Below, one piece after another: positions 2,239 to 22,430 of a DNA stretch of 24,728 nt (positions are counted from its first letter, which is position 1; every line of letters starts with the position of its first letter). The stretch is from IMG/VR virus record IMGVR_UViG_3300042389_000218, positions 1 to 24,728 of that record; one strand, given 5' to 3'. Position numbers and translations under genes: made by a program. Below the pieces are notes generated by a model. It had not been told where the DNA came from and searched no databases. It worked only from the letters and a program-made list of their open reading frames with translations. This stretch comes from a virus.

Positions 2239-2242
<4 letters not shown>
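1..2242 (-). CDS. Large fibre-like virion structural protein, 3' end beyond the window
   Basis: An open frame of 747 codons starts at the ATG at 2242 and stays open to base 1, so the C terminus is missing. I translated it by hand and found no stop. The start overlaps the stop of the collagen-like gene as ATGA (2239-2242), implying translational coupling. The protein is rich in Thr, Ser, Gly and Val. It has beta-type modules such as [18 protein letters not shown] followed by IGFGTT and DTSLTIS, and [20 protein letters not shown] followed by YYVIATN, module types common in long fibre or tail proteins of marine T4-like phages. A later part has aromatic-rich repeats that could be propeller-like. 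No enzymatic motif is visible. Its place next to the collagen-like fibre suggests a host-recognition or baseplate-attached fibre. The structural role is likely; the exact component is unknown. Confidence 0.8.
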
Positions 2243-5307
<3,065 letters not shown>

Positions 5308-6293: not shown

Positions 6294-7325
6294 CTATTTA
6301 GCCCACCTCTTGAGGGCAATGTGCCCCGCAAGTCCTGAAAATGAGTTGCGGATGATATCATATTGAATGTTGGTTCTTCCGTTCCCTGCAAGAACCATGT
6401 CATTGATGTCCTTCAATCCGCGAAATTTCTCAGACCAAACACATACCTTATGACCGTCTTCCAAAAGACGCTCCATTGCCTCTCCAACCTGTTTGTTGCG
6501 AGGCTCGTTGTCCAAGGCATAGATCAGGTCAGAATCCTTCAGTTCTTCGGGGATATTCGTGGCATCAGACAGTCCGACCATGGCTACGCAGTTGTCCAAG
6601 AACAGACTATCCAAAGGCCCCTCCACGACTATCACTTGTTTCTTTGGATCACAACGATCCAAGCCATACCATGTCTTTCCTGCATCCTTGTCTGCCTTAA
6701 CGGTCAGATATCGAATGGTGCTTCGATCAGGCTTACTGTTACCGATGATTCGTCCTTGTGCCCCCACTACCTTGCCGTCCATGTCTAAGATAGGAATGAC
6801 GATCCGTTCATCATCTCCCGCCTGTACATCGGGGTCGATGTTCTTCGCCCATTCCCCGTAGTTCTCGGAGTAGTAAAGGCGGCTCAGGCTTTCCTTGGGC
6901 AAACGCCGCTTGGTCGCCCACACAACAGCAGGGTGATCATTGGGGAGGGAGTCTAGCCGTGGCAGCAGAGAGAGGATCTTGTCCTCCCTTCGCACGGGTG
7001 CGTGGGTGTGCGCGTCCGCGTGTGCGTGTGTGCGCCCGTGCGAGACTCCTGTTTCCTTGAGTACTTCAAATGTGTACTGCTTGTACAGGTTGGGGTCGAG
7101 CGTTTTCAGCAGCCAACTCAGGGTCGCGCTGTAGTCGCAGTTGTGGCACTTGCATGAGAACGATCCCTTCTTCTCGTACAGATAGAATCGTGCCTTGCTC
7201 TTGCTTTTCTGACTGTCCCCACACATGGGACATCGACACACCGCAAGACTCTGCTTCTTCCATTGAAAGCGGTCTAGGCGAGGTGACAGCAAGTTGATGT
7301 ACTTGGTGTCAATGTGGATCGGCAT
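6294..7325 (-). CDS. 61: DNA primase, T4 gp61 type
   Basis: Makes RNA primers for lagging-strand synthesis together with the gp41 helicase. The protein has 343 residues from the ATG at 7325, close to the 342 of T4 gp61. A zinc site is formed by CPMC (32-35) and C60/C63, followed by a TOPRIM domain with VIVVEGPLDS (231-240, catalytic E235) and ALDNEP (270-275, D272). KDINDM (305-310) is typical of the family. I chose the ATG at 7325 over an in-frame GTG at 7349 because the GTG lies inside a near-consensus sigma70 promoter whose transcripts would start downstream of it. The resulting leader is very short. An unusual alternating His-Ala segment (97-110) separates the zinc and TOPRIM domains. Confidence 0.93.
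   Translation of the reverse strand: MPIHIDTKYINLLSPRLDRFQWKKQSLAVCRCPMCGDSQKSKSKARFYLYEKKGSFSCKCHNCDYSATLSWLLKTLDPNLYKQYTFEVLKETGVSHGRTHAHADAHTHAPVRREDKILSLLPRLDSLPNDHPAVVWATKRRLPKESLSRLYYSENYGEWAKNIDPDVQAGDDERIVIPILDMDGKVVGAQGRIIGNSKPDRSTIRYLTVKADKDAGKTWYGLDRCDPKKQVIVVEGPLDSLFLDNCVAMVGLSDATNIPEELKDSDLIYALDNEPRNKQVGEAMERLLEDGHKVCVWSEKFRGLKDINDMVLAGNGRTNIQYDIIRNSFSGLAGHIALKRWAK
6295..6302 (-). promoter_or_regulatory. T4-late-type promoter box (GCTAAATA) before the small acidic gene
   Basis: The minus strand reads GCTAAATA, 6 of 8 matches to TATAAATA, 18 bases upstream of the ATG at 6277. It overlaps the last codons of the primase gene. Confidence 0.45.
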
Positions 7326-7337
7326 TTGATTTGAGGT

Positions 7338-7366
7338 ACTATACCCCACGATCTGCGGGGTGTCAA
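7338..7366 (-). promoter_or_regulatory. Sigma70-type promoter for the primase
   Basis: On the minus strand, TTGACA (7361-7366) and TATAGT (7338-7343) are separated by exactly 17 bases. Transcription should start near 7331, only about six bases before the ATG at 7325. The spacer begins with CCCC and ends with GGGG, an inverted repeat that could be an operator. This marks the primase as host-polymerase transcribed, hence early or middle. Confidence 0.75.
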
Positions 7367-10451: not shown

Positions 10452-10712
10452 TTAGCCGCCCTTTGCTTTCTTCCAAAGATCAGCATCTGCGGTCTTGCGT
10501 GTCTTACCACCAACGATGAAAGAGTTGACTCTAGCAAACGCCCATTGGTGGCTCGTAGCACCAGGGCGGTGACCGCCCTTCCATGCCGCCATGCCACGGT
10601 CATAGACCTTCTTGAGGATGCCGTATGGAATGCCGCTAGCCTTTGCTTTCTTTTCAAGGGCTGCGATGCGGGCTTCTGAGATGTCCTGCTTGAGCGATTT
10701 ATAGTTCTTCAT
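10452..10712 (-). CDS. DUF5824-like protein with a capsid-targeting-type N terminus
   Basis: 86 residues from the ATG at 10712, which overlaps the stop of the 1198-residue gene as ATGA; a longer in-frame version from 10739 would extend into that gene and is less likely. The body (AKASGIPYGILKKVYDRGMA, then AWKGGHRPGATSHQWAFARV) matches the DUF5824 pattern found in many marine phages, function unknown. The N terminus MKNYKSLKQDISE|A is like T4 internal-protein leaders and ends in the prohead-protease consensus (L/I)xE|A. I infer a head-packaged small protein made from the same late mRNA as the two genes before it. Confidence 0.85.
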   Translation of the reverse strand: MKNYKSLKQDISEARIAALEKKAKASGIPYGILKKVYDRGMAAWKGGHRPGATSHQWAFARVNSFIVGGKTRKTADADLWKKAKGG

Positions 10713-13700
10713 GACTTCTTCTCGGGATTGTAGCCCCATACCTTGAGTGCGAGCAGTTTGCGTGTTGGGCGACCCTTCTCGTCTCGCATGGCACCCTTGG
10801 CACCCTTCATACGATTGATGAAGTTGACTTGCTTACCCGCCCATTTCCAATCGTTGGGTGTCCACTTTTCCTTGGGGGTATCAAGCATGCGAATGATGGC
10901 TCTCGCGGAATCGCGTCCGCTTGTGATCTTTTCACCGCTTGCTCCTGCCTTACCCGCTTCTTTGCGAGAAAGTCCTGCTTCCTTGCCCTCGTCTGAATCT
11001 AGGAAAGATTCAATTTCTTTTCCTGACATGTTTACGAGTTTCTGCCATTCTTTGTAGAGCGCAGACTTCTCCTCTTCAGACTTGTCCTCACCAAGACGCT
11101 CCCGCTCACCAGGGGTGTCCTTTTTGTAGGTCTTGACGATCTCGTCAGAACCGATCAGGAGAGGGCCTCTCTTGCCAATAGCCGTCCATTGCATGGTGGC
11201 ATTGATCTTCTTCGATTCATCAAGCCATCGGGTGGACTCTACTTCCTCTCCGTGCATCTTCCATGCGGTGGCGTAGAAAACATCCTTCCACCGATTGCCA
11301 TATCGCTTTTGGAATTCCTTCTTGATCTTCTCCTTCTTGGAGAAACGACGAGCGGGGCCGCTAGGAGGACTGACTTCCAACATCAGATAGTCGAAGTCCT
11401 CATTAATGTCCGTCTTCGGCTGATCCTTACCCTGCTCATCTCGGATCTCCTTCAAAAGATCGATGTACAAACGGGCGATGTTTGCGGCTTCGGTCATCTT
11501 GCGGAGAATGCAACGCTCCTCGTATGCAATCGACATACGCAACTTTGCACCATTGGTCTCATCGGAAGCATCAATCGCAGCGAGTTTTTCCATGACTTCA
11601 TCATGCTCGTACTGGTTCTTAAGAGCCTTCAACTTGCCCTTCTTCTCCAGTTTCTTGTACAGGCTGCTATACTTCGATGGCTTTGTCTTGATGTCCTTCT
11701 CGTCAGGATTGACGAATTCCCATGTCTGTGGATCATCGTCCGACATGGTCTTTCGCTTCTCCAATCGCTTCTTTCGAAGTTCTGCGTCCTTCTTGGAGAT
11801 ACCCGCGACATACTTCTTTGGAAGACCCGATGTCTTGTCCTTGGGGCTTTCCTTCGTCTTGCCCGACTTGGTCTTGAATTCCTTGCCCTTGGTTACATCG
11901 GCTTCGATGAGGGGATCGCCCTCCATCTCATCGCCCATGCCCAAGACATGAAGCATCGGGTAAAGAAGAGACGCAGCCTTTGAAAGGTATGTGCTTACAT
12001 CAACTCCACCGCTAACAAACAACTTGTCCATCAACTTTACGATGATCTTGCCCACCTTATTGTCGGTAGCAAACGCAGTAAGAGTCATACCCGATACAGC
12101 AGCCTTGTGTGCTTGAACCAAGATTTCGGTTTTGGTCTTCTGCACTTCTTTCTTGAACTCTTCGGGGGGTAGCACCTTTTTCTTGTTCGCTAGAGTGAAC
12201 AACTTGGTGCTGACTGCGGGGGTCTTGATCAGTTCGACCACCGCCTTGGCAGCATCCTTGGTTGCCATCTCCGAAAGTTCTTCCTCTTCCTCCTCGTCGC
12301 CCTTGCGCTTGGAGTTAACATCAGGCTGAGGATAGATCGCTTCTGTGGGGTCTACTACCATTCCCGTCTTGCTGAGGAACTGCAACCCGATCAGAACCTT
12401 CGTAGACATGTGACTGCGATCACCAAGACTGAACTTGATGTTCGCGTACTTCTTGCCGTGGAACTCAATGTCCATCAGAACGACAAGTCGCTTCTTCTCG
12501 CCAATGCCACTCTTGACCGTGATGCGACTGACGATCTTCTTGGTAACCTTCTTGCCGTTGGGCAACTTGAAGGTGACGGTGTGATCGCCATTGTCCTTGA
12601 TGTCTTCGGCATGGATCATGTTGTAGCCGCTGTTGCCTGTGTCGATCTTGGCGGTGTACTCCACGCCATCGATCTTCACCTCTTCGCGCACGGCTAGATT
12701 GGAGAACAACTTCCAATGTGCCTTGTTGAGAATGTAGTCAACAAAGTCTTCGACCAGTTCCTCGCCCTTGACATTGTTCTTGCCCTTGCCATCTTCGTAA
12801 TAGCGGTAGTAGATGTTACCGCTGCCTGGGCTTGCATTCATCTCAATGATGTATGGCTTGCCGTCATTGATGACATGGTCGATTCCGACATAGTAGCACT
12901 TACTAACCCTTGCAGCCCGCTCCACCAACTTTATTTCCTCGTCAGAAAGTTGGAAAGACCCACCCTTTGAACCACGGGCGATGTTGGTACGGAAATCCTT
13001 TGGTGCCTTGTCGCGCTTGGCGCAAGCGAAGATCTTTCCGTTGAGGACGATACTGCGGACATCGTTCTTGAAGTTCGGCAGGAACTCCTGAAGAATAACT
13101 TCCGCACCATACTTCCATAGAGTCTGTAGCACGGACTTGAGGCTTTCCATGCTTTCGATCTTCGAAACGCCGATACCCTCTGCCCCCGTGAGGGTCTTGC
13201 AGATGATCGGGAACTTGCCGCCGACTTCCTTTACGGCAGATTCGATGTTCTCTTCATTGACAACGAAAGCGGTACGGGGATGTGGCAACTCATGCTTCTT
13301 GAGAGCAATTGCCGTCTCCAACTTGTTGGCGCACAGTTCCATGCCGCCACGCTCGTTGATCATGAACACCCCGTTGTTCTGTAGGATGGTCATGATTGCA
13401 ACACCGATCTCGCTGTTCATTACGCCGCCGCGAACAATTGCAACGGTGTTTGCGGGATCGACCACGGCATCTTTGCCTTCACCATCATAGTTCTTGATTG
13501 TGATCTTCTTAGAGGCAACATTGGAAATCTCCACCTGTGCCTTGCTCGTCTTAACAGCATAGAACTCAATCTTGCGCCGCTTGCAAATGGCTTCCATCTT
13601 CTCAATCGTATCGCTGAGATCTTTCTCAGAGGATGTCAGGGCAAGAATGGTGACTTTGTCTTCCCCATCCTTTGCTTCGAAGATGTACTCCTCCTTGAGA

Positions 13701-14305
13701 TTCATGCCCTTGCGGACATCGTTGTACATCTTCTTCTTGATTGCAACATCGTTTCCTGCGATGCCTGTAGAGAACTTCTTGAAGTCTCCATCAAACGCCG
13801 CTGCTCTCATTTTGGATGCGGACATTCCCTGAACGCCCTGTGCATCATCGTCGCGGGCTTCACCCGCCTGAACTACCTCAAAGGTATCGAATGAATACTT
13901 GCGCTTCTTAGGATCGCGCTCGGCAGTCTTGCCCTTGTACTTGGCGATGTTCTTGAAGTTCTCTACCTGATCGCTACCCGCGACCATGATGATGTTCTTG
14001 TAGCCCAAATCGCAGACATACAGAACCGCAGAATATGGATCTCCCGCCTTGTTCAGGGGGAACTTCGCCTTGGGGAAGAACTTCTTTAGATACTCAACCT
14101 TTTGCTTGTGCGTCAGAGGGTTCTTCTTCGGATCCTGTGAGGTAGATGCAAAGATGAAGTGATCCGCATTACGCTTCGATGCTTCGGAAAGAACCTTGTC
14201 AACGAGAACACCGTGACCGATTGTCGGTGGGTTCATGCGACCGAATGCAATAACAACCGTGTCCTTCTTCGGTGCTTCGGTGATGTGCTGTGCGAAGTTC
14301 TTCAC
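10709..14305 (-). CDS. Giant multidomain protein: nucleotidyltransferase, RimK-like ATP-grasp, retropepsin-like protease, packaged-module tail
   Basis: 1198 residues from a GTG start that overlaps the previous stop as GTGA. Residues 15-200 are an NMNAT/cytidylyltransferase-like domain (GRMNPPTIGH at 22-31, MSASKMR at 161-167). Residues 215-530 are RimK-like ATP-grasp, with K370 and a glycine loop (GAEGIG), FRTNIARGSKGG (438-449) and the metal-binding IEMNASPG (487-494). Residues 535-655 match the RimK-associated retropepsin-like protease family, with IDTG (554-557) and VLIGLQFL (637-644). Residues 666-800 are acidic then helical and unrecognised. Residues 824-880 are DUF5872-like (GLPKKYVAG, TKPSKY). 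Small Lys-rich modules follow (979-1020 and 1084-1195). The N terminus MKNFAQHITE|A and further (I/L)xE|A sites at 210 and 801 suggest prohead-protease processing at domain borders. Domain functions are family inference; substrates are unknown. Confidence 0.88.
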   Translation of the reverse strand: MKNFAQHITEAPKKDTVVIAFGRMNPPTIGHGVLVDKVLSEASKRNADHFIFASTSQDPKKNPLTHKQKVEYLKKFFPKAKFPLNKAGDPYSAVLYVCDLGYKNIIMVAGSDQVENFKNIAKYKGKTAERDPKKRKYSFDTFEVVQAGEARDDDAQGVQGMSASKMRAAAFDGDFKKFSTGIAGNDVAIKKKMYNDVRKGMNLKEEYIFEAKDGEDKVTILALTSSEKDLSDTIEKMEAICKRRKIEFYAVKTSKAQVEISNVASKKITIKNYDGEGKDAVVDPANTVAIVRGGVMNSEIGVAIMTILQNNGVFMINERGGMELCANKLETAIALKKHELPHPRTAFVVNEENIESAVKEVGGKFPIICKTLTGAEGIGVSKIESMESLKSVLQTLWKYGAEVILQEFLPNFKNDVRSIVLNGKIFACAKRDKAPKDFRTNIARGSKGGSFQLSDEEIKLVERAARVSKCYYVGIDHVINDGKPYIIEMNASPGSGNIYYRYYEDGKGKNNVKGEELVEDFVDYILNKAHWKLFSNLAVREEVKIDGVEYTAKIDTGNSGYNMIHAEDIKDNGDHTVTFKLPNGKKVTKKIVSRITVKSGIGEKKRLVVLMDIEFHGKKYANIKFSLGDRSHMSTKVLIGLQFLSKTGMVVDPTEAIYPQPDVNSKRKGDEEEEEELSEMATKDAAKAVVELIKTPAVSTKLFTLANKKKVLPPEEFKKEVQKTKTEILVQAHKAAVSGMTLTAFATDNKVGKIIVKLMDKLFVSGGVDVSTYLSKAASLLYPMLHVLGMGDEMEGDPLIEADVTKGKEFKTKSGKTKESPKDKTSGLPKKYVAGISKKDAELRKKRLEKRKTMSDDDPQTWEFVNPDEKDIKTKPSKYSSLYKKLEKKGKLKALKNQYEHDEVMEKLAAIDASDETNGAKLRMSIAYEERCILRKMTEAANIARLYIDLLKEIRDEQGKDQPKTDINEDFDYLMLEVSPPSGPARRFSKKEKIKKEFQKRYGNRWKDVFYATAWKMHGEEVESTRWLDESKKINATMQWTAIGKRGPLLIGSDEIVKTYKKDTPGERERLGEDKSEEEKSALYKEWQKLVNMSGKEIESFLDSDEGKEAGLSRKEAGKAGASGEKITSGRDSARAIIRMLDTPKEKWTPNDWKWAGKQVNFINRMKGAKGAMRDEKGRPTRKLLALKVWGYNPEKKS

Positions 14306-15504
14306 GACTCGTTTACCTTTCTATTCTGTCTGCTGAAGCGCAAACGATTGACCAACTTGACTGCCGTGCCCGTGCGAACGATTACGATCCCCTCGGGATC
14401 TGTGGGACGAATGCCGTCAGCATCTACAAAGAAGTGACCAAGAGCAGACACCGCATACATCTTTCCAAGAATCATTTCCTTGACTTTGGCGATCTTATTG
14501 TGCAACTCAAACATAGCGGTGAACTGACCCTCATACGCATCGATGAACGCGAGAATGTCATTCATGGCGGCTTCCTTCGCCTGTCTGCCCTTCTCGGTCT
14601 TCAACTTATTTAGTTCCTTTTCCAACTTAGTCTTAACATACAATTTCAGACCATTTGTGCTGAAACTGGTCATACCACCATTGATCGTGCTATTAATGTA
14701 GGGGAGCATCAGCGGCATGAGGTCTTTACGGGCAAGCAGCGGCTTCAGGAAGGGCTTTACCTTCTTCGCTAGGGCTTCGCACTCGGTAATGCTCCTGAGA
14801 GCCATATCGCCTTCTCCACCCTTCATAAGGGCAGGGGTGAGGTCGTAGATGTTTGGATCGGTGAACCAAACATCGGGATTCTGCTTGAGTTTGCTAGCGT
14901 TGAAATTGAAGGTGGTTGCCTTCAGATCGGCAAGAGTCTTGCCTGAGTATTCGGTATGGAATGTGATTCCAATCTTTGCGGCGGCGATGCGCTTACCGAT
15001 CTCGCCCTCAGTCGGAACGGTGTAAAGAATCGTATTTGGTTGGAAGCCGATGTGTGGCTTGCCGCCAATCGTGAGGTTCTTCTTGCCGTCTGCGGTGAAC
15101 ATCAGGTCTCCCTGTAGCACCGTCTTGATTCCGATCTTTGGAAGATGCTTTAAGCATTCGACCAACTTGTCAGCCAAGTCCTTGATGTCGAATCCCTTGC
15201 GAATCTCTTGCTCGGTATGAAAGACCTTTTGGACTTGCTTTCCAAAGACACCCTTGATGGCGACGAAGAACTTCTTGTTCTCGGGATTGATACCACAGAT
15301 GACAGCAGGCTTGCCGTCCCACTTGGTGGACATCCCCATGGTAGTGCTGCCTGTCTTGAGGCTCTGAACAATGTCCTTCATGAAGGCAATAGCATTGTCC
15401 AATCCGCTGCCACCACGAAGAAGCATAAGATCTTCGATGTGATCTAGGTGCTTGTTCTGCTCAGTTTGCTCTATCAGGGGGAGCATTTGCTTAAATGACA
15501 GCAT
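14302..15504 (-). CDS. DUF6267-like protein with polynucleotide-ligase nucleotidyltransferase motifs
   Basis: 400 residues. It carries a KWDG motif (61-64), which matches the nucleotide-accepting KxDG motif I of DNA/RNA ligases and capping enzymes. QGDLMF (131-136) resembles motif III, EGIVIV (371-376) motif IV, and VKLVNR (382-387) motif V. The order is correct, but about 230 residues lie between motifs III and IV, more than in ordinary ligases, so an inserted helical domain is likely (about 225-345). I recall the family as DUF6267 of marine T4-like phages. It has a late-type promoter and an AGGAGA site, and heads the operon with the 1198-residue protein. The N terminus MLSFKQMLPLIE|Q weakly resembles a capsid-targeting peptide. 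Ligase or RNA-end-modifying activity is inferred. Confidence 0.85.
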   Translation of the reverse strand: MLSFKQMLPLIEQTEQNKHLDHIEDLMLLRGGSGLDNAIAFMKDIVQSLKTGSTTMGMSTKWDGKPAVICGINPENKKFFVAIKGVFGKQVQKVFHTEQEIRKGFDIKDLADKLVECLKHLPKIGIKTVLQGDLMFTADGKKNLTIGGKPHIGFQPNTILYTVPTEGEIGKRIAAAKIGITFHTEYSGKTLADLKATTFNFNASKLKQNPDVWFTDPNIYDLTPALMKGGEGDMALRSITECEALAKKVKPFLKPLLARKDLMPLMLPYINSTINGGMTSFSTNGLKLYVKTKLEKELNKLKTEKGRQAKEAAMNDILAFIDAYEGQFTAMFELHNKIAKVKEMILGKMYAVSALGHFFVDADGIRPTDPEGIVIVRTGTAVKLVNRLRFSRQNRKVNES

Positions 15505-15622: not shown

Positions 15623-17068
15623 TTAAGACCAACCCTTTATGGCGGGTTTCTCGCGCCCGTACCCGCCCGTGCGCCTGTACGCGCCCCCGCCCCCGTGCGC
15701 GTGACCATTGTCTTCATCGTCTTGGTCTTCGGCAGCGTTGCCTTGAATCAACTGCTGCTGAGATTCATCCACATCAAACAACTTCATCTTTGCACGGTCG
15801 ATGCCAATCACGAACTTACGGTTCGTGGCGACATCGTTGTATCGATTCTTCAACTGCTTCACCATCACCTGTCCCAACTCGTCCAACTGCTCGGTTGCAA
15901 TGAGTGCAAACATGAAGTCTGCGGTGGCAGGAAGACCGAATGATTCCGATGTATCCGTGAGTTCGACATCGGTGTTGCCAAAGCCCGAACGGTTGGTCTG
16001 TGTTGCAGTAAAGATCGGAACACCGATCTCCACAGCCAAGCCACGAAGTTCCTCGGCAATCGCCTTCACATAGGTGTACGAGTTGACATTCCCATTTGCC
16101 TTGAAGCGGGAGGATGCACAGATGTTGAGATAGTCAATGAAGATGACATCGGGCTTGAAGTTCTTCTTCAGTCGAAGTTCGTCCAACAGGTGACGAAAGT
16201 GGTTGACATTCGCAGATGCGGTTGGGTATTCCTTGATCAGGAGTTTTCCTGTGATGCCCATGGTCACCTTGGCTAGACGCTTGGCATAGATCTCCATCGG
16301 CAACTTCTTGAGATCGTCAAGCGTGATGTCCATCAGGTTGGCATCGATGCGTTCTGCGATCCGCTCCTCAGCCATCTCGCATGTGATGTATAGCACATTC
16401 TTGCTTTGGGTCAGGCAGTTGGCGGCATGGTGGCACATGAACAGGGACTTGCCCACACCAGTACCCGCTAGAATGACATTCAGAGTCTTGTCGGGCACCC
16501 CGCCGTTAGTGATCTTGTTGAAGTAGTCAAGGTCAAACGCCGTCTTCTTCTCCACGCGGTGGTAGAAGTCATAGCGTTTCTCTGCGTCTTCGATGAAGTC
16601 GTGTCCGATATGCTCATCGAAAGATACGCTGAGAGCCTTGGTCAGGATCTCGGGGATCGCGTTCTTTGAGCGACCCTTCGCCTTCTTCTCGTCTAGCAGT
16701 TCAACGGACTCCATGAGAGCGTTGTAGACAGCCTTGTCCTTGCAGAACTTCTCGGTCTGATCGACAAGCCATTGCTCATCAGGCTCCTCGCCCGACTTCT
16801 CCAAGCACTCCACCAACTTGACACACTCATCGAACTCGCCCTGAGACAGACCATCCTGCTGATTGAGGATGATCTTTAGGGCTTCGCGGGTGGGTGCGGT
16901 AGCATACTTCTCAATGAAATCAGATACCGTATTGAACAGCCGCTTCTCGCAGGGGTCATGAAAGTATTCCTGCTTGAGAAACGGCTGAACACGGCGTGTG
17001 AATTCAGGACGGTGAAGAAGGCTGCGAAGAATGATGAGTTCGATGTTGTCCGTCATGGATTCGGACAT
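15623..17068 (-). CDS. 41: Replicative DNA helicase, T4 gp41 / DnaB type
   Basis: Unwinds DNA 5'-3' at the fork as a hexamer and works with the gp61 primase. 481 residues: an N-terminal helical domain (1-130), a linker and a RecA-like ATPase. Walker A is AGTGVGKS (201-208), Walker B is VIFIDYLN (308-315), and TATQTNRSG (354-362) and KNRYND (407-412) are the later helicase motifs. It is close in length to T4 gp41 (475). The C-terminal tail (450-481) is odd: acidic and then Gly/His/Arg-rich, encoded by very GC-rich DNA sharing the octamer CCCGTGCG with the primase insert. The ATG at 17068 has only a weak GAAAG site; Met5 is an alternative. The tRNA follows directly. Confidence 0.95.
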   Translation of the reverse strand: MSESMTDNIELIILRSLLHRPEFTRRVQPFLKQEYFHDPCEKRLFNTVSDFIEKYATAPTREALKIILNQQDGLSQGEFDECVKLVECLEKSGEEPDEQWLVDQTEKFCKDKAVYNALMESVELLDEKKAKGRSKNAIPEILTKALSVSFDEHIGHDFIEDAEKRYDFYHRVEKKTAFDLDYFNKITNGGVPDKTLNVILAGTGVGKSLFMCHHAANCLTQSKNVLYITCEMAEERIAERIDANLMDITLDDLKKLPMEIYAKRLAKVTMGITGKLLIKEYPTASANVNHFRHLLDELRLKKNFKPDVIFIDYLNICASSRFKANGNVNSYTYVKAIAEELRGLAVEIGVPIFTATQTNRSGFGNTDVELTDTSESFGLPATADFMFALIATEQLDELGQVMVKQLKNRYNDVATNRKFVIGIDRAKMKLFDVDESQQQLIQGNAAEDQDDEDNGHAHGGGGAYRRTGGYGREKPAIKGWS

Positions 17069-17097: not shown

Positions 17098-18021
17098 TCA
17101 GATCAACCAATTCATCAATGAAACCTTTGGAGACCAACCCAATAGTTCTTTTGCTTTTTGCCAGTTGCAAAGCGTATGTCTTGCCTCGCCTGACCGTGGG
17201 GGCAGGAATCGAATTGTTCCATCGTCACCCGCGATCACCTTGGCAATCTCAATCACGGAGTGGGAAGTTCCCGTACCGATGTTGATGATGTCACCATTGA
17301 ACTTTTTGATTGAATTCGCAGCAGCGATGTTGGCAGACACAATGTCAGAGACATGGATGTAGTCCCGTGTCTGCATTCCATCTCCGACTACTGTGAGGGG
17401 GACACCCTCTGCCTTCTGTCGCTTGAACACAGCCACAACGGGGCAATACTGACCTTTGTTGGATTGTCCTTCTCCGTACACATTGAAGTAACGCAGAGAA
17501 ACGGTGTCCATGTAATGAACGCCGTTATCGGTAACCAAAGGCTTACTGTAGAGTTTGCACAACTCCTCACACATCAACTTGCTTGTCGAATAGATGTTGA
17601 GGCAGTCAGTCTTGCCCATCTCATTCTGACTTCCGTACAAACCGAAAGAAGCATCGCCCATCCCATAGATTGCGGATGTCGATGAGAACACAAAGCGAGA
17701 GACCCCCGCCTTTCTCGCACAGTCCAGTACATTAAAAGTACCAGTAACATTAGAGTTGGAGGTCTTTTGTGGATTGGCAATGCAACGGGGAATACTAACT
17801 TCCGCTGCCATGTGAAAAACCATATCGACTTGTTCAAAGTCGGAAACTGTAAGGTCATTGATATCGCAGTTCATATTGACTGCGCGATCATCCCATTTGA
17901 ATTTTTCGTGTCCCTCGGAACTTTCGTTATCGACACAGATAACGGTGTTTCCGTTGTCTAGCAGAGCCTTTACCAAATGAGAACCTATGAACCCTGCGCC
18001 GCCCGTCACCATGTACCGCAT
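17098..18021 (-). CDS. NAD-dependent nucleotide-sugar epimerase/dehydratase (GalE-like SDR)
   Basis: 307 residues of the extended short-chain dehydrogenase family. The Rossmann motif GGAGFIG is at 7-13, followed by CVDNES and the CDINDL acidic segment. A FSSTSAIYG strand is followed by the catalytic YSTSK. NVTGTFNVLDCARKAG and RDYIHVSDIV are typical of UDP-glucose/UDP-GlcNAc 4-epimerases. The exact substrate cannot be told. The ATG at 18021 has an AAGGA site. It follows a methyltransferase and ends the sugar block just before the helicase. The C terminus is slightly short but the fold looks complete. Confidence 0.9.
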   Translation of the reverse strand: MRYMVTGGAGFIGSHLVKALLDNGNTVICVDNESSEGHEKFKWDDRAVNMNCDINDLTVSDFEQVDMVFHMAAEVSIPRCIANPQKTSNSNVTGTFNVLDCARKAGVSRFVFSSTSAIYGMGDASFGLYGSQNEMGKTDCLNIYSTSKLMCEELCKLYSKPLVTDNGVHYMDTVSLRYFNVYGEGQSNKGQYCPVVAVFKRQKAEGVPLTVVGDGMQTRDYIHVSDIVSANIAAANSIKKFNGDIINIGTGTSHSVIEIAKVIAGDDGTIRFLPPRSGEARHTLCNWQKAKELLGWSPKVSLMNWLI

Positions 18022-18024
18022 GTA

Positions 18025-18588
18025 TTAGTCCTTTTTTAGATAAACCCAACAGCCCTCAGTTTCAGTCACGGGACGAACAGATTCATCTACTGCTCGTCTT
18101 ACCGATTCACTCCAAGAGTAATCATGGCCTGCTAAGTATCCACCGACCTTTACCTTTGGCAACCATGCCGCAATGTCTTGTTTTACACAAGCATAATCGT
18201 GACACGCATCGATGAACACCACATCCAAAGAGTTGTCGCTATATGTTGCCGCAGCCTCAATGGAAGAGAGTCTAACGGCTTTTACAACCTTTGAAACAGG
18301 GGAGATGTTCGAACAGAACAATTGATAGAGAGTATTTGTCTTCACATAGGTGTCATTTTTGTGATACGACTCTGTTGACATTTCCGCCCATGTGTCTACT
18401 GCATCAACTGCGATGTCCTTCCCCGAGTTGATGATTTCTACCCCCAAGTAAGCAATGCTCTTTCCTTTCCAACAACCAACCTCAACGATTTTTGAACCAT
18501 TGGGGAGTTGCTTCACGAACGAAGAGTATAGATTTGGGTATGTGAACCAGTTTTCCCCAAATTGGGGCTGTTGGTATATGTGTTCCAT
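18025..18588 (-). CDS. SAM-dependent class I methyltransferase
   Basis: 187 residues. The SAM-binding motif I is IVEVGCWKGKS, followed by AVDAVDTW (motif II region), DVVFIDACHDYACVKQDI and GGYLAGHDYSW, the pattern of the Methyltransf_24 family often found in polysaccharide clusters. It may methylate a sugar or an intermediate made by the neighbouring enzymes; the substrate is unknown. It lies between the RmlB-like dehydratase (21 bases upstream) and the epimerase (3-base gap), likely in one operon with both. Confidence 0.88.
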   Translation of the reverse strand: MEHIYQQPQFGENWFTYPNLYSSFVKQLPNGSKIVEVGCWKGKSIAYLGVEIINSGKDIAVDAVDTWAEMSTESYHKNDTYVKTNTLYQLFCSNISPVSKVVKAVRLSSIEAAATYSDNSLDVVFIDACHDYACVKQDIAAWLPKVKVGGYLAGHDYSWSESVRRAVDESVRPVTETEGCWVYLKKD

Positions 18589-18609
18589 ATAGAAGTGTTC
18601 CGTTCCCTA

Positions 18610-19650
18610 TCAGATCGAATGATGAAGAACAGGTCGTGAACCAACTTCAGATGGCTTCATCCCGATCCATTGTGGGTTCGACAGAGACCACTTTACAACA
18701 GCCTCCATCGATTGACTGAGGTTCATCGGAAGATCCCAGCCCATTTCCTTCATCTTGCTTCCGTCCAATGCATATCGAAGGTCGTGCCCAGGTCTGCTGC
18801 TGTGGAAGTCAACCAACTCGTAGTTCAGCGGCTTGTCCATGATGTTTGCAATCATCTTTGCGAGAGAAAGATTGTCGATCTCTCGTTCGCCCACGATGTT
18901 GAACTTATCACCGTTCTTACCGTTCTTGAGGATGAAGTCTACAGCAGAGCAGACATTCTGAGCGTGAATGTAGAACCGACTTCCTGCAAGGGTGAGGCTC
19001 TTGTTGGCGTGAATGATGACCTTTTCGCCTTTGTAGATCTTGCGGATACAGGACGGAATGAACTTCTCTGGGTGCTGACGCTCACCAAAGATGTTCATGC
19101 AATGCGAGATTTTGATGGGCATCTTGTAAGTGTTTTCAAAGGCAAGACAGAGTTCTTCGCCGCCCGCCTTTGTAGCAGAGTATGGATTGCCCGACTGATA
19201 CCGATCCCATTCCTTGTAGTTTACACCCTCGGGTGCTGGGCCAAACACTTCGTCTGTTGAGAAGTATACAAAGTTGTCGAGGTTGTCGAGGTGACGGGCA
19301 TAGTTGAGGATATTGCAAGTGCCTACAACATTGTCCATGACAAACGACAGCGGGTCTTCGATGCTTCGATCCACATGGGATCCTGCGCCAATGTGAAGAA
19401 CCGTATCAGGTTCGCCCAACAGGGAGCAAAGAATCTCGTTGTTGTACAACTCGGCACGGAGATCGTGCCATACGAACTTCACTCTGTTGCTGTTATTCTT
19501 CCAAGATGGAAGTTCGGTGAGACGATTGAGATTGCCCGACACATCCAATCTGTCAATGATGGTGATGTTTGCGTCCGTATTACGGAGCAAGTAATCGACC
19601 ATATGATGACCAACGAATCCAACGCCACCCGTGATGAGAACATTCTTCAT
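18610..19650 (-). CDS. dTDP-glucose 4,6-dehydratase-like protein (RmlB family)
   Basis: 346 residues, similar to RmlB. The NAD motif is ITGGVGFVG (5-13). The catalytic signature STDEVFG carries the Thr-Asp-Glu typical of 4,6-dehydratases, and YSATK supplies the Tyr/Lys pair. NIFGERQHPEKFIPSCIRKI and SRFYIHAQNVCSAVDF match the sugar-binding C-terminal part. It would form a 4-keto-6-deoxy sugar nucleotide, the entry point to rhamnose and other deoxy sugars. It has its own sigma70-type promoter (19675-19703) and an AAAGG site, so it and the two downstream genes can be expressed apart from the rest of the block. Confidence 0.9.
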   Translation of the reverse strand: MKNVLITGGVGFVGHHMVDYLLRNTDANITIIDRLDVSGNLNRLTELPSWKNNSNRVKFVWHDLRAELYNNEILCSLLGEPDTVLHIGAGSHVDRSIEDPLSFVMDNVVGTCNILNYARHLDNLDNFVYFSTDEVFGPAPEGVNYKEWDRYQSGNPYSATKAGGEELCLAFENTYKMPIKISHCMNIFGERQHPEKFIPSCIRKIYKGEKVIIHANKSLTLAGSRFYIHAQNVCSAVDFILKNGKNGDKFNIVGEREIDNLSLAKMIANIMDKPLNYELVDFHSSRPGHDLRYALDGSKMKEMGWDLPMNLSQSMEAVVKWSLSNPQWIGMKPSEVGSRPVLHHSI

Positions 19651-19674
19651 AGTGTAGACCTTTCGATTTGTCTG

Positions 19675-19703
19675 ATTCTAACAGTACTTATGCTTGATGT
19701 CAA
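19675..19703 (-). promoter_or_regulatory. Sigma70-type promoter before the RmlB-like gene
   Basis: TTGACA (19698-19703) and TAGAAT (19675-19680) on the minus strand are separated by 17 bases. The start is expected near 19668, giving a leader of about 18 bases. The -35 box sits inside a 6-bp inverted repeat (GCTTGA at 19692-19697, TCAAGC at 19700-19705). It overlaps the end of the GDPD-like gene. Confidence 0.75.
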
Positions 19704-20179
19704 GCCCTAGTATTTTGCTTTCCGAACTTCTCTACACAATCGTAGATGTAATCGGAACAAACTCCAACAAAACCTGTTTGATTGTACGACATCACAGATT
19801 CCCGAGAGAGTAAAGGAATGATGCACTTGTCGTTCATTTGATTTTCCAAATCATGCGACCAAATCAGACCGTTGCTGATGAGGGTGTAGCGATCCGATTC
19901 ATGGCAGAAGTAGTTTGTCCCTGGACAGTTTTTCATCAACCAAATCAGGGCTTGATACTCTTTGACATGAATCCAAAGATAATACCAACGCTTTCGTATC
20001 CACTCAGCAGAAACTGGGTAGTCAGGTGTGTCGTGTCCCAAATGAGGGACACCATCTTTCATGCGAAGATCAATCTCACAATGAAATCCCTTGCTTAGGC
20101 ATTCCTCTATGTAAGCGGGTTCGTTTTCCCTTTGTGTATTGACTCCGTCAAGATTTCCACGGTGCGAAATGAAGATCAT
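19700..20179 (-). CDS. Short glycerophosphodiester phosphodiesterase-like (GDPD) protein
   Basis: 159 residues from the ATG at 20179, which overlaps the previous stop as ATGA; a longer in-frame start at 20236 would extend into that gene and is less likely. The GDPD active-site pattern is present: SHRGN (5-9), then CEIDLRMKDGVPHLGHD (34-50), giving the His-Arg, Glu/Asp and His-Asp residues for metal binding and catalysis. The family is normally about 230-250 residues, so part of the barrel is missing. Such short versions may act on a nucleotide-linked or phosphodiester-linked sugar intermediate, fitting the neighbouring nucleotidyltransferase. Activity is uncertain. Confidence 0.82.
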   Translation of the reverse strand: MIFISHRGNLDGVNTQRENEPAYIEECLSKGFHCEIDLRMKDGVPHLGHDTPDYPVSAEWIRKRWYYLWIHVKEYQALIWLMKNCPGTNYFCHESDRYTLISNGLIWSHDLENQMNDKCIIPLLSRESVMSYNQTGFVGVCSDYIYDCVEKFGKQNTRA

Positions 20180-21033
20180 CTGATTACCGTCTCCTTTAGT
20201 AGATCTTGCTTTGCTGCAAGATGGTATTTCTTCCAATAGTCAAATGCCGCAGCAGCGTCTGTTGCTGTCTTACATTGACCCCCATTCAGGATAGTCACCC
20301 ATGCCTCAAAATTCTGTACCTCTTCGGGGGTTCCAAAAACGGTGACGAATGGGGTGTCGTAGTACCCCACTTTCAATCCATCACGGACAAGAAGATTGTA
20401 GACGAGCGTAACATAGAACTCGCCGTTGTACTGGATATTCTCCTTGACTGCTTGGTCGAAGTATTTCTTGATGTAAGAACCCTTCTTGAAGTAGTAGACC
20501 CCCGTAGAAGCATGCTCATTTAGCGGGTTGTTTGTGTAGCAAGCCTTCTCCTTGATCTCGTCAAGCACCCCATCAGAACCTTTGACGAACGCCATCTTGG
20601 TGTGTGCCAAGGTGTGGGGGTGAAACCCAGTATGAGTGAGAACACAGCCATCGAAATCACCATTCGTCATCTTTGCATGGAAATCATCCCGATTCCACAG
20701 ATGAGGGTTGTCACAATACGAAATAATGACCTCCTCATCATCGTCAATCATGTCATAGACTGTTTGCACCGTGTATACGGGGCCCAACTTGTGTTGTGGC
20801 ATCGAAACGATTGTTGCGTTTGGCACCAGTTCCTCAAGAACACTCCTCATGTTTGTCGTTTCTAAATGCACAGAGTTGCAGATGAAGACGAACTCGTCAT
20901 TCTTGCGGTCGAACATATCCAAGATGTATTCGATTATTCGCTTGCCATTTACTTTGATGAGTGGCTTGGGGTCTTTATACCCCCGCTCAACAAATCGATT
21001 GCCAGTACCCGCCATAGGAATCACAATCTTCAT
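20176..21033 (-). CDS. Sugar-phosphate/phosphoalcohol nucleotidyltransferase
   Basis: 285 residues. The N terminus IPMAGTGNRFVERGYKDPKP is the nucleotide-binding signature of the NTP_transferase family (GxGxRF...PKP), followed by LIKVNGKRIIEY. EEVIISYCDNPHLW includes the metal-binding aspartate region, and GCVLTHTG and TGVYYFKKGSYIKKYF are typical later blocks. It activates a phosphorylated small molecule by attaching NMP; the base and substrate are not readable. It overlaps both neighbours by ATGA, so it is tightly coupled to the kinase/aldolase fusion and the GDPD-like protein, suggesting a three-gene pathway. Confidence 0.9.
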   Translation of the reverse strand: MKIVIPMAGTGNRFVERGYKDPKPLIKVNGKRIIEYILDMFDRKNDEFVFICNSVHLETTNMRSVLEELVPNATIVSMPQHKLGPVYTVQTVYDMIDDDEEVIISYCDNPHLWNRDDFHAKMTNGDFDGCVLTHTGFHPHTLAHTKMAFVKGSDGVLDEIKEKACYTNNPLNEHASTGVYYFKKGSYIKKYFDQAVKENIQYNGEFYVTLVYNLLVRDGLKVGYYDTPFVTVFGTPEEVQNFEAWVTILNGGQCKTATDAAAAFDYWKKYHLAAKQDLLKETVIR

Positions 21034-22430
21034 ACTAAAGCCTTCCTGTATTTCTCTGACTGCATGTTGTTTAACTGCTGCACTTCAGAACTATCCAAAA
21101 ACTTGGGGTTCAGACAGGCACCCATCATCAACCGAAGTATGTAGTTGTTCGTCTCTCCCATCTCATCGGGAAGAACAGCGGCATCGGGGAAAAGCGGGGC
21201 ATGTGCGATAGCGTCCTCAATATCAACAAACGATTCGACATGATTGCCTAACCATTTCTTGCATCGACGGTTGATGTCTTCCGTCATGACCATCGCACTC
21301 TCTGCTGTTTTCGCACTCACGATTAGTCCGTGGTTCTCTAAGAAGATCACTCCACGAAGATCTCTGATCCTATTCGTGAGTCTCGCACCTGGGGTGGTGT
21401 ATTCTACGAACTCATATGAGAGATCCTGAAATAGACCTCGAACGATAGCCCGTGCCTCTTTGCTACAAAGAATGACATTCAAATGGATTGGGTGAGTATG
21501 TACAACAACTTGATCGGAAATGGATGCATGAAACCCTGTTTCCATAGAGGGTCTTTGCGTACCCGCGATCTTTGATTGGTTGATGAACTGGTTGTATTCA
21601 TCCTCTCTTTCGAAGCGAGGTATTGACTCACCATCGATGTTGCATAGGCAGAATCCATGATGGAGATTAATGTCTGCCATGTTCGATCCTGATGCTTTGA
21701 TGATCAACCCGCTATTGGACTTTACGGATACATTCCCGCCCCTGCCTTGTGTCAGAGATGGCTCAAGAGACAGCCATTTACAGATATCCATGAACTCAGT
21801 CAGGCTTTCGTAGAAGCCCTTCACTTTAGACATTAGCGATTCGCCAGTTCCCGTGACAGAGACATACTCTAAAGAGATGTCCCCGTCTTTTGACTTGGTG
21901 AACTTTACGATGATGTCTGCGCGGTTCTTTTGTGGGGTAATATAGATCTCTTCATCGCGCTTGCGTCTTCGCATTGTGTCTAAGACTTGCGACTCGGTAT
22001 ATCCCCTCTTCTTGGTGTCGCGTTTGACTTTCCACTCGGTCTTGAGTGCATGATCAGTATCAACGAATATCTTGATGTCTGCCAATGACATAGTGGGATC
22101 ATGATAAAGAGCATGAAGACCCTCATAGACAATGTACTTTTTGGGTTCTATTGTGATCGCAGGGTCAAACTTCCCTGTATCGTGATTATAGATCCTTCGA
22201 CTGACGGGTCTCTGCTGCTTCAGGGAAACGATATGATCGTATCCCATCTCCAAATCATTCGCCTCGGGGTTCAAGTGAGTCAAGTTGTTCCAAACTGGAT
22301 CACTTCTTTCCCACTTATGCAGATCATCACCACTAACAAGCACAGTATCGCTATCTCCCAATACAGATCGGATGAGATGTGCGATGGTGGTTTTTCCAAC
22401 GCCCGAACTACCAGAAATACAAATGTTCAT
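21030..22430 (-). CDS. Kinase / class II aldolase fusion
   Basis: 466 residues with two catalytic domains. Residues 1-195 form a uridine kinase/phosphoribulokinase-like P-loop kinase: GSSGVGKT (7-14), RRIYNHDTG (78-86) and YEGLHAL (102-108), the last two close to phosphoribulokinase motifs. Residues 205-466 form a class II aldolase/adducin domain: GRGGNVSVK (229-237), the zinc-binding HTH (311-313) and ENHG (365-368, third His). Aldolases of this type split or form phosphorylated ketoses such as fuculose-1-P and rhamnulose-1-P. A kinase making the phosphosugar and an aldolase acting on it in one chain is plausible. Overlaps both neighbours by ATGA. Confidence 0.88.
   Translation of the reverse strand: MNICISGSSGVGKTTIAHLIRSVLGDSDTVLVSGDDLHKWERSDPVWNNLTHLNPEANDLEMGYDHIVSLKQQRPVSRRIYNHDTGKFDPAITIEPKKYIVYEGLHALYHDPTMSLADIKIFVDTDHALKTEWKVKRDTKKRGYTESQVLDTMRRRKRDEEIYITPQKNRADIIVKFTKSKDGDISLEYVSVTGTGESLMSKVKGFYESLTEFMDICKWLSLEPSLTQGRGGNVSVKSNSGLIIKASGSNMADINLHHGFCLCNIDGESIPRFEREDEYNQFINQSKIAGTQRPSMETGFHASISDQVVVHTHPIHLNVILCSKEARAIVRGLFQDLSYEFVEYTTPGARLTNRIRDLRGVIFLENHGLIVSAKTAESAMVMTEDINRRCKKWLGNHVESFVDIEDAIAHAPLFPDAAVLPDEMGETNNYILRLMMGACLNPKFLDSSEVQQLNNMQSEKYRKALV

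Follow-up and report, generated by a model that had tools for sequence, protein, structure and literature searches.

We analyzed a 1198-amino-acid (aa) polyprotein in which a RimK-like ATP-grasp ligase is joined to a retropepsin-like protease, encoded in a viral DNA stretch of 24,728 nucleotides (IMG/VR record IMGVR_UViG_3300042389_000218, positions 1 to 24,728; hereafter the window). The explanation that we favor, as probable and by no means certain, is that a T4-type phage packages this polyprotein in its head, cuts it within the prohead, and sends the ligase/retropepsin pair out together with the DNA. The parts of this explanation differ in strength: packaging of the window protein is likely; a host-modifying role of the ligase–protease is a reasonable proposal; and the host target of the ligase is a guess from its relatives.

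The open reading frame (ORF; 10709..14305, minus strand) begins with GTG and holds the whole observed ligase and retropepsin pair. Its start overlaps the stop (14302) of the upstream DUF6267 gene, and the identical GTG start and the N-terminal tag could be read in several relatives. From the N-terminus, the chain comprises a putative head-targeting tag, a cytidyltransferase-like domain, the RimK-like ligase, the retropepsin, a poly-Glu linker, and C-terminal modules. The first-pass annotation had placed RimK and retropepsin motifs at residues 215-655 of one phage chain, and the ORF positions indeed correspond to 13663-12341; both the peptide-adding and the peptide-removing fold were supported by sequence and modeling, with conserved metal and DTG motifs. 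That annotation had also put the pair next to a nucleotidyltransferase. Such a domain is present, but it is not a neighboring gene: by profile it forms residues 4-208, the N-terminal part of the same chain. The cytidyltransferase-like domain was delimited at residues 12-207 (13685..14272, minus strand), with TIGHG at 28-32 and SASKMR at 162-167, and matched phrog_3041 (3e-54) and phrog_395 (2.3e-38); the Pfam match to CTP_transf_like (0.0026) was under the cut-off.

The ligase occupies residues 222-497 (12815..13642, minus strand) and carries the metal motifs GIDHV (474-478) and IIEMNASPG (486-494), of which EMNASPG aligns with EVNASPG of E. coli RimK. It matched Pfam PF08443 at residues 327-497 (E-value 1.5e-28) and TIGR00768 at residues 235-494 (2e-41; 142.2 bits, just under the cut-off of 143.4). 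The S6:glutamate ligase equivalog NF007764 was not reached (67.1 bits against a cut-off of 331). In a profile search, the nearest solved structures were RimK enzymes (7qyr, 3.1e-24; E. coli RimK 5zct, 1.3e-17). Moreover, the AlphaFold2 model of residues 205-665 (ligase–protease, 461 aa; predicted local distance difference test [pLDDT] 78.6) had RimK as its top structure matches by Foldseek and VIA, including RimK with RpsF; the alignment with 7qys_D gave Z 28.3 and 2.8 Å over 289 residues. D272, E284, N286, K166, R227, and R235 (A2 numbering) were invariant in 18/18 aligned relatives. The nucleotide and metal motifs noted earlier were thus found intact in the sequence, and the predicted structure showed no broken ATP site. 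By sequence and model, the ligase is a member of the RimK-like ATP-grasp family, and homology suggests glutamate as the added residue and, as acceptor, an acidic C-terminus such as that of S6.

The protease (residues 540-656; 12338..12688, minus strand) was recognized by profiles and by predicted structure. Residues 540-656 matched PF05618 ('Zn_protease'; 1.6e-9, over the cut-off), a family whose characterized members are described as retropepsin-like in passages of PMC11957791 and PMC12239564. The RloA3 model NF052264 was matched under its cut-off (1.4e-9), and the RimB endopeptidase equivalog NF052261 was not reached (28.4 bits against 200). Against the Protein Data Bank, the protease profile matched 9g59 (2.6e-9), 9g58 (6.1e-9), and 2pma (2.8e-6). 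The protease alone was also modeled with AlphaFold2 as a single chain of 128 aa (pLDDT 85.5); its top matches were the DUF785 protein 2pma and 9g58 and 9g59 (RloA, RloA2), followed by the proteases of human immunodeficiency virus and equine infectious anemia virus (EIAV), with alignments of Z 15.2, 2.4 Å, and 114 residues for 2pma_A and Z 10.5, 2.8 Å, and 100 residues for EIAV 1fmb. The IDTG and VLIG motifs on which the family assignment had been based lie in IDTGNS (residues 554-559; 12629-12646) and at residues 637-640. D351-S355 (A2 numbering) was invariant in 18/18 aligned relatives, and in a wider alignment the D and G were invariant (20/20) with T or S between them, giving DTG or DSG. 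Taken from sequence and from the single-chain model, the protease is a predicted single-lobe retropepsin-like fold with DTG kept.

The distribution of the pair was evaluated by tblastn with the ligase–protease part against 50,697 phage records, 28 of which matched. Query cover of at least 80% was reached in three of the 28, Pelagibacter phage Mosig and Yersinia phages YerA41 and GN1, all with stand-alone genes (Mosig_00005, YerA41_066, and GN1 ORF105) whose ligase–protease unit is 29-30% identical to that of the window and which are annotated as glutathione synthetase or structural protein. Ligase-only matches were found in Melnitz phages and in cyanophages S-RIM8, S-RIM12, and S-RIM32. A first IMG/VR scan gave 517 matching stretches and 78 kept loci: three were stand-alone (L079, L081, L082), and 75, some of them fragments, belonged to the window's own fused clade, in which the ligase–protease is joined to the cytidyltransferase-like domain. 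A second scan gave at least 80 loci; the 79 examined (L081, already read, was omitted) encode the stand-alone form, with 472-496 aa where 3'-complete. In bacterial contigs, rimB lay just upstream of rimK as a separate ORF in all seven loci read (matches running past the ligase, among the best 80), and in the published RimBK hybrid the protease likewise precedes the ligase (PMC11957791, in part). The phage order, ligase then protease, is the reverse of the bacterial order.

Packaging was suggested first by the N-terminus. The window protein starts MKNFAQHITE↓A (arrow, predicted cut), and its putative capsid-targeting tag (residues 1-10; 14276..14305, minus strand) has the spacing of T4 IPII and IPIII, with F4, H7, I8, E10, and A11 fitting their geometry. 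IPII and IPIII start MKTYQEFIAE↓A, and their record (X04567) annotates a ten-residue propeptide. According to passages of the review PMC9026906, the first ten residues of IPIII are enough for packaging, positions 4 and 7 serve targeting, positions 8 and 10 serve processing, gp21 cleaves after L/I-x-E, and T4-like phages may package diverse proteins by such tags. By sequence, the window protein has the feature by which T4-type internal head proteins are recognized, namely an N-terminal propeptide of 10-19 residues that includes the targeting positions and has a predicted cut at φ-x-E (φ, hydrophobic).

The specificity of this feature was assessed with a tight tag pattern, composed after the window protein had been seen, which in four related contigs fitted 11/615 called gene starts (G001, 6; G002, 2; G003, 0; G004, 3) and 0/6777 internal start-like codons (Fisher 1.2e-12). 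In T4, with 248 called genes screened, it picked IPII and IPIII and no others, and it fitted none of 1317 internal codons. A looser pattern with A, G, or S after the cut was fitted by 24 of the 36 distinct N-termini in the fused clade, some of which have uncertain starts, and the T4 tag geometry was present in 60 of 76 readable N-termini of the stand-alone clade, of which 12 had no tag under the looser pattern. Furthermore, a Pfam scan of ten tagged or tag-like proteins identified an NT5C-like nucleotidase and an AAA_33 kinase over the cut-off, gave one weak match, and left seven proteins with no match; the leader is thus common to proteins of different kinds.

Leaders of the same kind were also observed elsewhere. 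In contig G001, leaders resembling MK(S or N)F..HI.E↓A occur at L094:3152-3778, L095:4238-4705, L095:3139-4218, and other places, and include the NT5C-like nucleotidase, the AAA_33 kinase (looser pattern), and unknowns; together with DUF6267, these tagged proteins might be injected as a set for RNA or nucleotide repair. The genes adjoining the nucleotidyltransferase in phages Melnitz and C48C1 have similar beginnings by eye, and the protease-free RimK of Melnitz (L120:82-1131) has a tag-like start, TQKFSQFITE↓E.

Sites of the prohead-protease type were further predicted at the joints between domains. In a survey of the 16 residues before the ligase (34 distinct sequences out of 67), the nucleotidyltransferase–ligase junction contained [ILVF]-x-E in 34/34, with 11 kinds of middle residue and with Ala (27), Glu (4), Gln (2), or Ser (1) following. 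In same-length stretches within the ligase–protease domains of 44 distinct proteins, the frequency was 32% for φ-x-E and 2.5% for φ-x-E[AGS]. The window's own site is IFE↓A (13673..13684, minus strand), with the cut predicted after residue 210. On the protease side, a Glu run precedes a second φ-x-E site, EEEEEELSE in the window (residues 671-679; 12269..12295, minus strand), as revealed by the junction survey of relatives. Among 42 distinct junctions, the run comprised at least six Glu in 24, four or five in 6, and at most three in 12; wherever it reached at least four (30/30), φ-x-E started no more than two residues past it. The codons are mixed GAA/GAG, and given this mixture an origin of the run by DNA slippage is thought unlikely. 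In a 59-63% identical branch (L061-L070), poly-Glu is absent after the protease and φ-x-E is there in most; L066 has no site.

The variable C-terminal modules (residues 680-1198; 10709..12268, minus strand), about 520 residues beyond the protease and linker, include DUF3140 (1086-1169), DUF6321 (1159-1190, under the cut-off), and a further site predicted from the sequence pattern, LIE↓ADV at residue 801 (11894-11911, minus strand). In relatives read to the stop codon, 283-666 aa lie beyond the matched part, except in the three stand-alone proteins (18-26 aa) and L066 (118 aa). The prohead protease gp21 is encoded in two related contigs, G001 and G003 (1.3e-33 and 4.1e-38), along with gp23. The gp23 φ-x-E sites read YLRE↓S or YLKE↓A in G001 and G003 and FLSE↓A in Mosig and Melnitz. 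Taken together, the tag, the internal sites, and the gp21 protease are consistent with a polyprotein cut in the prohead.

Virion data were available for two relatives. In purified S-SM1 virions, 41 proteins were detected, including the putative citidylyltransferase T4-GC190 (Sullivan et al. 2010, PMC3037559, in part). T4-GC190 is SSM1_190 in the S-SM1 record, a 387-aa protein that starts MKKFSAFLNE↓A, with a tag as in the window protein, and shares 38.6% identity with residues 16-207 of that protein (1.4e-33). In addition, Table 3 of PMC7354516 lists YerA41 g112, a 'Ribosomal protein modification protein', as middle-expressed and virion-associated. We equated g112 with YerA41_066 because of its 'structural protein' annotation and because the genes for ribonucleotide reductase lie beside it in matching order. 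Since YerA41 has no T4-like tag and its virion list holds many replication enzymes, we take this support as moderate.

In the proposed mechanism, the ten-residue tag would bring the polyprotein into the prohead core, where gp21 would strip the tag and cut the interdomain [hydrophobic]-x-E sites. The products would be a cytidyltransferase-like protein, the RimK-like ligase joined to the retropepsin-like protease, and C-terminal pieces, all of which would exit the head together with the DNA. The ligase would then, in the new host, extend the C-terminus of a host protein by an acidic amino acid, most likely glutamate, with S6 as the best guess by homology, and a dimeric retropepsin would trim or reset the tail or stimulate the ligase as RimB does RimK. 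Packaging, cleavage, injection, activity, and substrate of the window protein are steps that we infer. The first-pass annotation had suggested modification of a host protein early in infection; such timing finds indirect support in the predicted head-targeting tag and prohead-protease-type sites, which it had missed.

Several observations weigh against packaging and delivery. Besides its origin after the fact, the tight pattern misses T4 IPI and Alt and finds nothing in G003, and the looser pattern is less selective, fitting 18/615 gene starts and 8/6777 internal codons in the contigs and 7/248 and 4/1317, respectively, in T4, where just two of the seven are internal proteins. Twelve of the 36 distinct fused-clade N-termini miss even the looser pattern (nine do not fit, and in three the sole difference lies after the cut), and YerA41 has no T4-like tag. 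The RimK-only proteins of S-RIM8, S-RIM12, and S-RIM32 have no tag either; therefore, phage RimK can exist unpackaged. At protease-side junctions lacking a Glu run, the site occurred in 11/12 (L066 has none), with a chance level of about 73% owing to the long stretch; the residue after the protease-side site is mixed (Ala 13/41, Met 10, Asp 7, others), Ala being a minority, and the site counts are not independent because the sequences are related. Neither gp21 nor gp23 was found in 5/7 related records, which are possibly fragments, or among the 20 ORFs scanned with Pfam in the window, itself a 24.7-kb fragment. The S-SM1 virion evidence covers the nucleotidyltransferase part alone, which is the sole BLAST match of SSM1_190 to the window protein. 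The YerA41 virion list also includes helicases, polymerases, and a DNA ligase (PMC7354516, in part), and carry-over is possible because the list holds such replication enzymes. Finally, bacterial RimBK was not observed to glutamylate RpsF in the passages of PMC11957791.

One rival is that the protein simply works inside the cell as an enzyme expressed in the course of infection, acts at the ribosome as RimK does, and resembles head proteins at its N-terminus incidentally. The operon lies amid replication genes (helicase 15623-17068, primase 6294-7349), YerA41 g112 is reported as middle-expressed, and the S-RIM RimK proteins carry no tag. The concentration of the tag pattern at gene starts, the precision of this pattern in T4, the φ-x-E sites at the nucleotidyltransferase–ligase junction, and the detection of the tagged S-SM1 homologue in virions argue against it, and we regard such an enzyme as unlikely.

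To a similar degree unlikely is that the retropepsin is itself a head-assembly processing enzyme, a second maturation protease beside gp21 that works inside the prohead and cuts poly-Glu both within the polyprotein and within scaffold gp22, with the ligase as its partner or regulator. RimB cleaves runs of at least six contiguous Glu, internal runs included (PMC11957791, in part), and the polyprotein and gp22 are the sole called proteins of G001 and G003 with at least five consecutive Glu. A run of at least seven Glu was present in gp22 of 31 of 38 relatives examined (40 returned); the clade's gp22 (L087:15176-16273, minus strand, and L210-L245, other than L235, L236, L238, and L239) mostly has 7-11 Glu near residue 50. 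No run of at least four was found in gp22 from seven phages outside the clade (S-IOM18, S-RIM2, ACG-2014d, S-RIM44, T6, AG-345-L05, for which the longest ORF was taken as gp22, and S-SM1). These seven, with none in Mosig and HTVC008M and a single run of four in Melnitz, rule out poly-Glu as a general gp22 trait. What counts against a second maturation protease is that the retropepsin occurs where poly-Glu does not: Mosig has no run in gp22, none of 76 readable stand-alone ligase–protease proteins has at least five consecutive Glu, and 12/42 fused junctions have at most three. Conversely, Melnitz has the four Glu in gp22, and at the search sensitivity applied the phage yielded no retropepsin. 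Both genes were found on two contigs only; a search of 10 gp22-bearing records for the retropepsin gave none, a result that is uninformative because the records may be fragments.

A broader proposal would join this idea to the favored one: the retropepsin and the poly-Glu tracts of its own polyprotein and of gp22 would form a second head maturation system beside gp21, the cut ligase, ending in EEEEEELSE, would extend or read acidic tails, and writer and eraser would take part in assembling the head and also, once injected, in taking over the host. We consider it more doubtful again than a second maturation protease by itself. Least probable of all is that the ligase acts on no host protein: its product would instead be a small peptide, free poly-glutamate or another, or it would modify its own C-terminus (EEEEEELSE) once cut by gp21. 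RimK is described to make free poly-alpha-glutamate, stimulated by RimB (PMC11957791, in part), and the predicted cut end is acidic with a terminal Glu. Nevertheless, the small-molecule genes seen in the window are of the sugar-nucleotide type and show no plain link to peptides, and the stand-alone proteins are again without a run of five Glu.

Three further candidates were rejected. Phage-encoded bS21 as the acceptor found PF01165 in 0/7 related records (Mosig has a gene so annotated); a defense system gave no PADLOC match for the three sequences given; and for a role in YerA41 DNA hypermodification, the Nucleic Acids Research (NAR) paper describes a thymidine substitution of oligosaccharide character, with no mention of ATP-grasp, RimK, or glutathione in its passages.

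The component parts of the favored head-packaged polyprotein are of known kinds, and the fusion as such has a bacterial counterpart. The RimBK hybrid of Desulfotalea psychrophila and the rimB-rimK operons (Little et al. 2025, PMC11957791, in part) combine the same two folds, a RimK-type ATP-grasp with a RimB-type retropepsin; however, the bacterial protease comes first, whereas the phage ligase comes first and the window protein adds the head tag and extra domains. Like the window protein, T4 IPII and IPIII have a short N-terminal tag ending in φ-x-E, and T4 Alt is a host-modifying enzyme entering with the DNA, as proposed for the phage ligase–protease. The window protein differs from the T4 internal proteins and Alt in having a peptide ligase and an aspartic protease instead of an ADP-ribosyltransferase, and several modules per chain with predicted internal cuts. 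The cyanophage virion cytidyltransferase SSM1_190 shares the homologous nucleotidyltransferase domain and the tag. In contrast, Mosig_00005, YerA41_066, and GN1 ORF105 share the ligase–protease unit and, being stand-alone, have neither nucleotidyltransferase nor poly-Glu. In Pseudomonas RloA/RloC, the retropepsin has an ATP-grasp partner gene, and RloA and RloA2 were among the top structure matches, but those proteases are secreted and have a membrane partner, RloB (PMC12239564, in part). Polyvalent proteins are multi-domain phage proteins predicted to be injected, like the window polyprotein; the passages of PMC5512222 contain no RimK and no retropepsin and name ATP-grasp for RNA ligases only. 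R2K phage ATP-grasp ligases are peptide ligases predicted or proposed to modify host proteins (PMC4431377 and PMC7824862, in part), but R2K is a distinct ATP-grasp clade, and packaging of the window protein is predicted from a T4-type tag. Among the titles and abstracts listed, none dealt with a phage-encoded RimK–retropepsin, and the ligase–protease combination, reversed order, and head delivery route had no match in these or in the passages covered.

Both genes flanking the polyprotein have tag-like beginnings. Downstream, the DUF5824 gene (10452..10712, minus strand), whose start overlaps the polyprotein stop, is a second tagged gene: read from its second Met, it has a leader resembling that of the polyprotein (MKNYKSLKQDISE↓A). 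Upstream, the DUF6267 gene (14302..15504, minus strand; PF19782, 1.4e-92) has a tag-like N-terminus by eye (MLSFKQMLPLIE↓Q) and contains KWDGKP, QGDLMF, PEGIVI, and AVKLVNR in this order, a series that we take to resemble the nucleotidyltransferase motifs of RNA/DNA ligases. From these features, DUF6267 may be a packaged nucleic-acid ligase. Elsewhere in the window, 2239-5307 (minus strand) encodes a protein of 1022 aa that contains collagen triple-helix repeats (PF01391, 1.3e-64), perhaps a fibre, and 17098-22430 (minus strand) encodes two epimerase/dehydratases, a methyltransferase, an NTP transferase, and a uridine-kinase-like/aldolase II fusion, a set of sugar-nucleotide and small-molecule genes.

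Among enzymes that are injected with phage DNA and rewire the host ahead of phage gene reading, T4 Alt is the prototype. If a peptide ligase is indeed packaged along with a protease of its own, this would add the writing and erasing of C-terminal tails to the strategy, in a phage group with hundreds of IMG/VR relatives (517 stretches in one scan). Moreover, the tag together with φ-x-E at domain joints provides a simple rule for listing likely head-packaged proteins of uncultured T4-type phages, and the poly-Glu runs offer a testable connection between poly-glutamate and phage heads.

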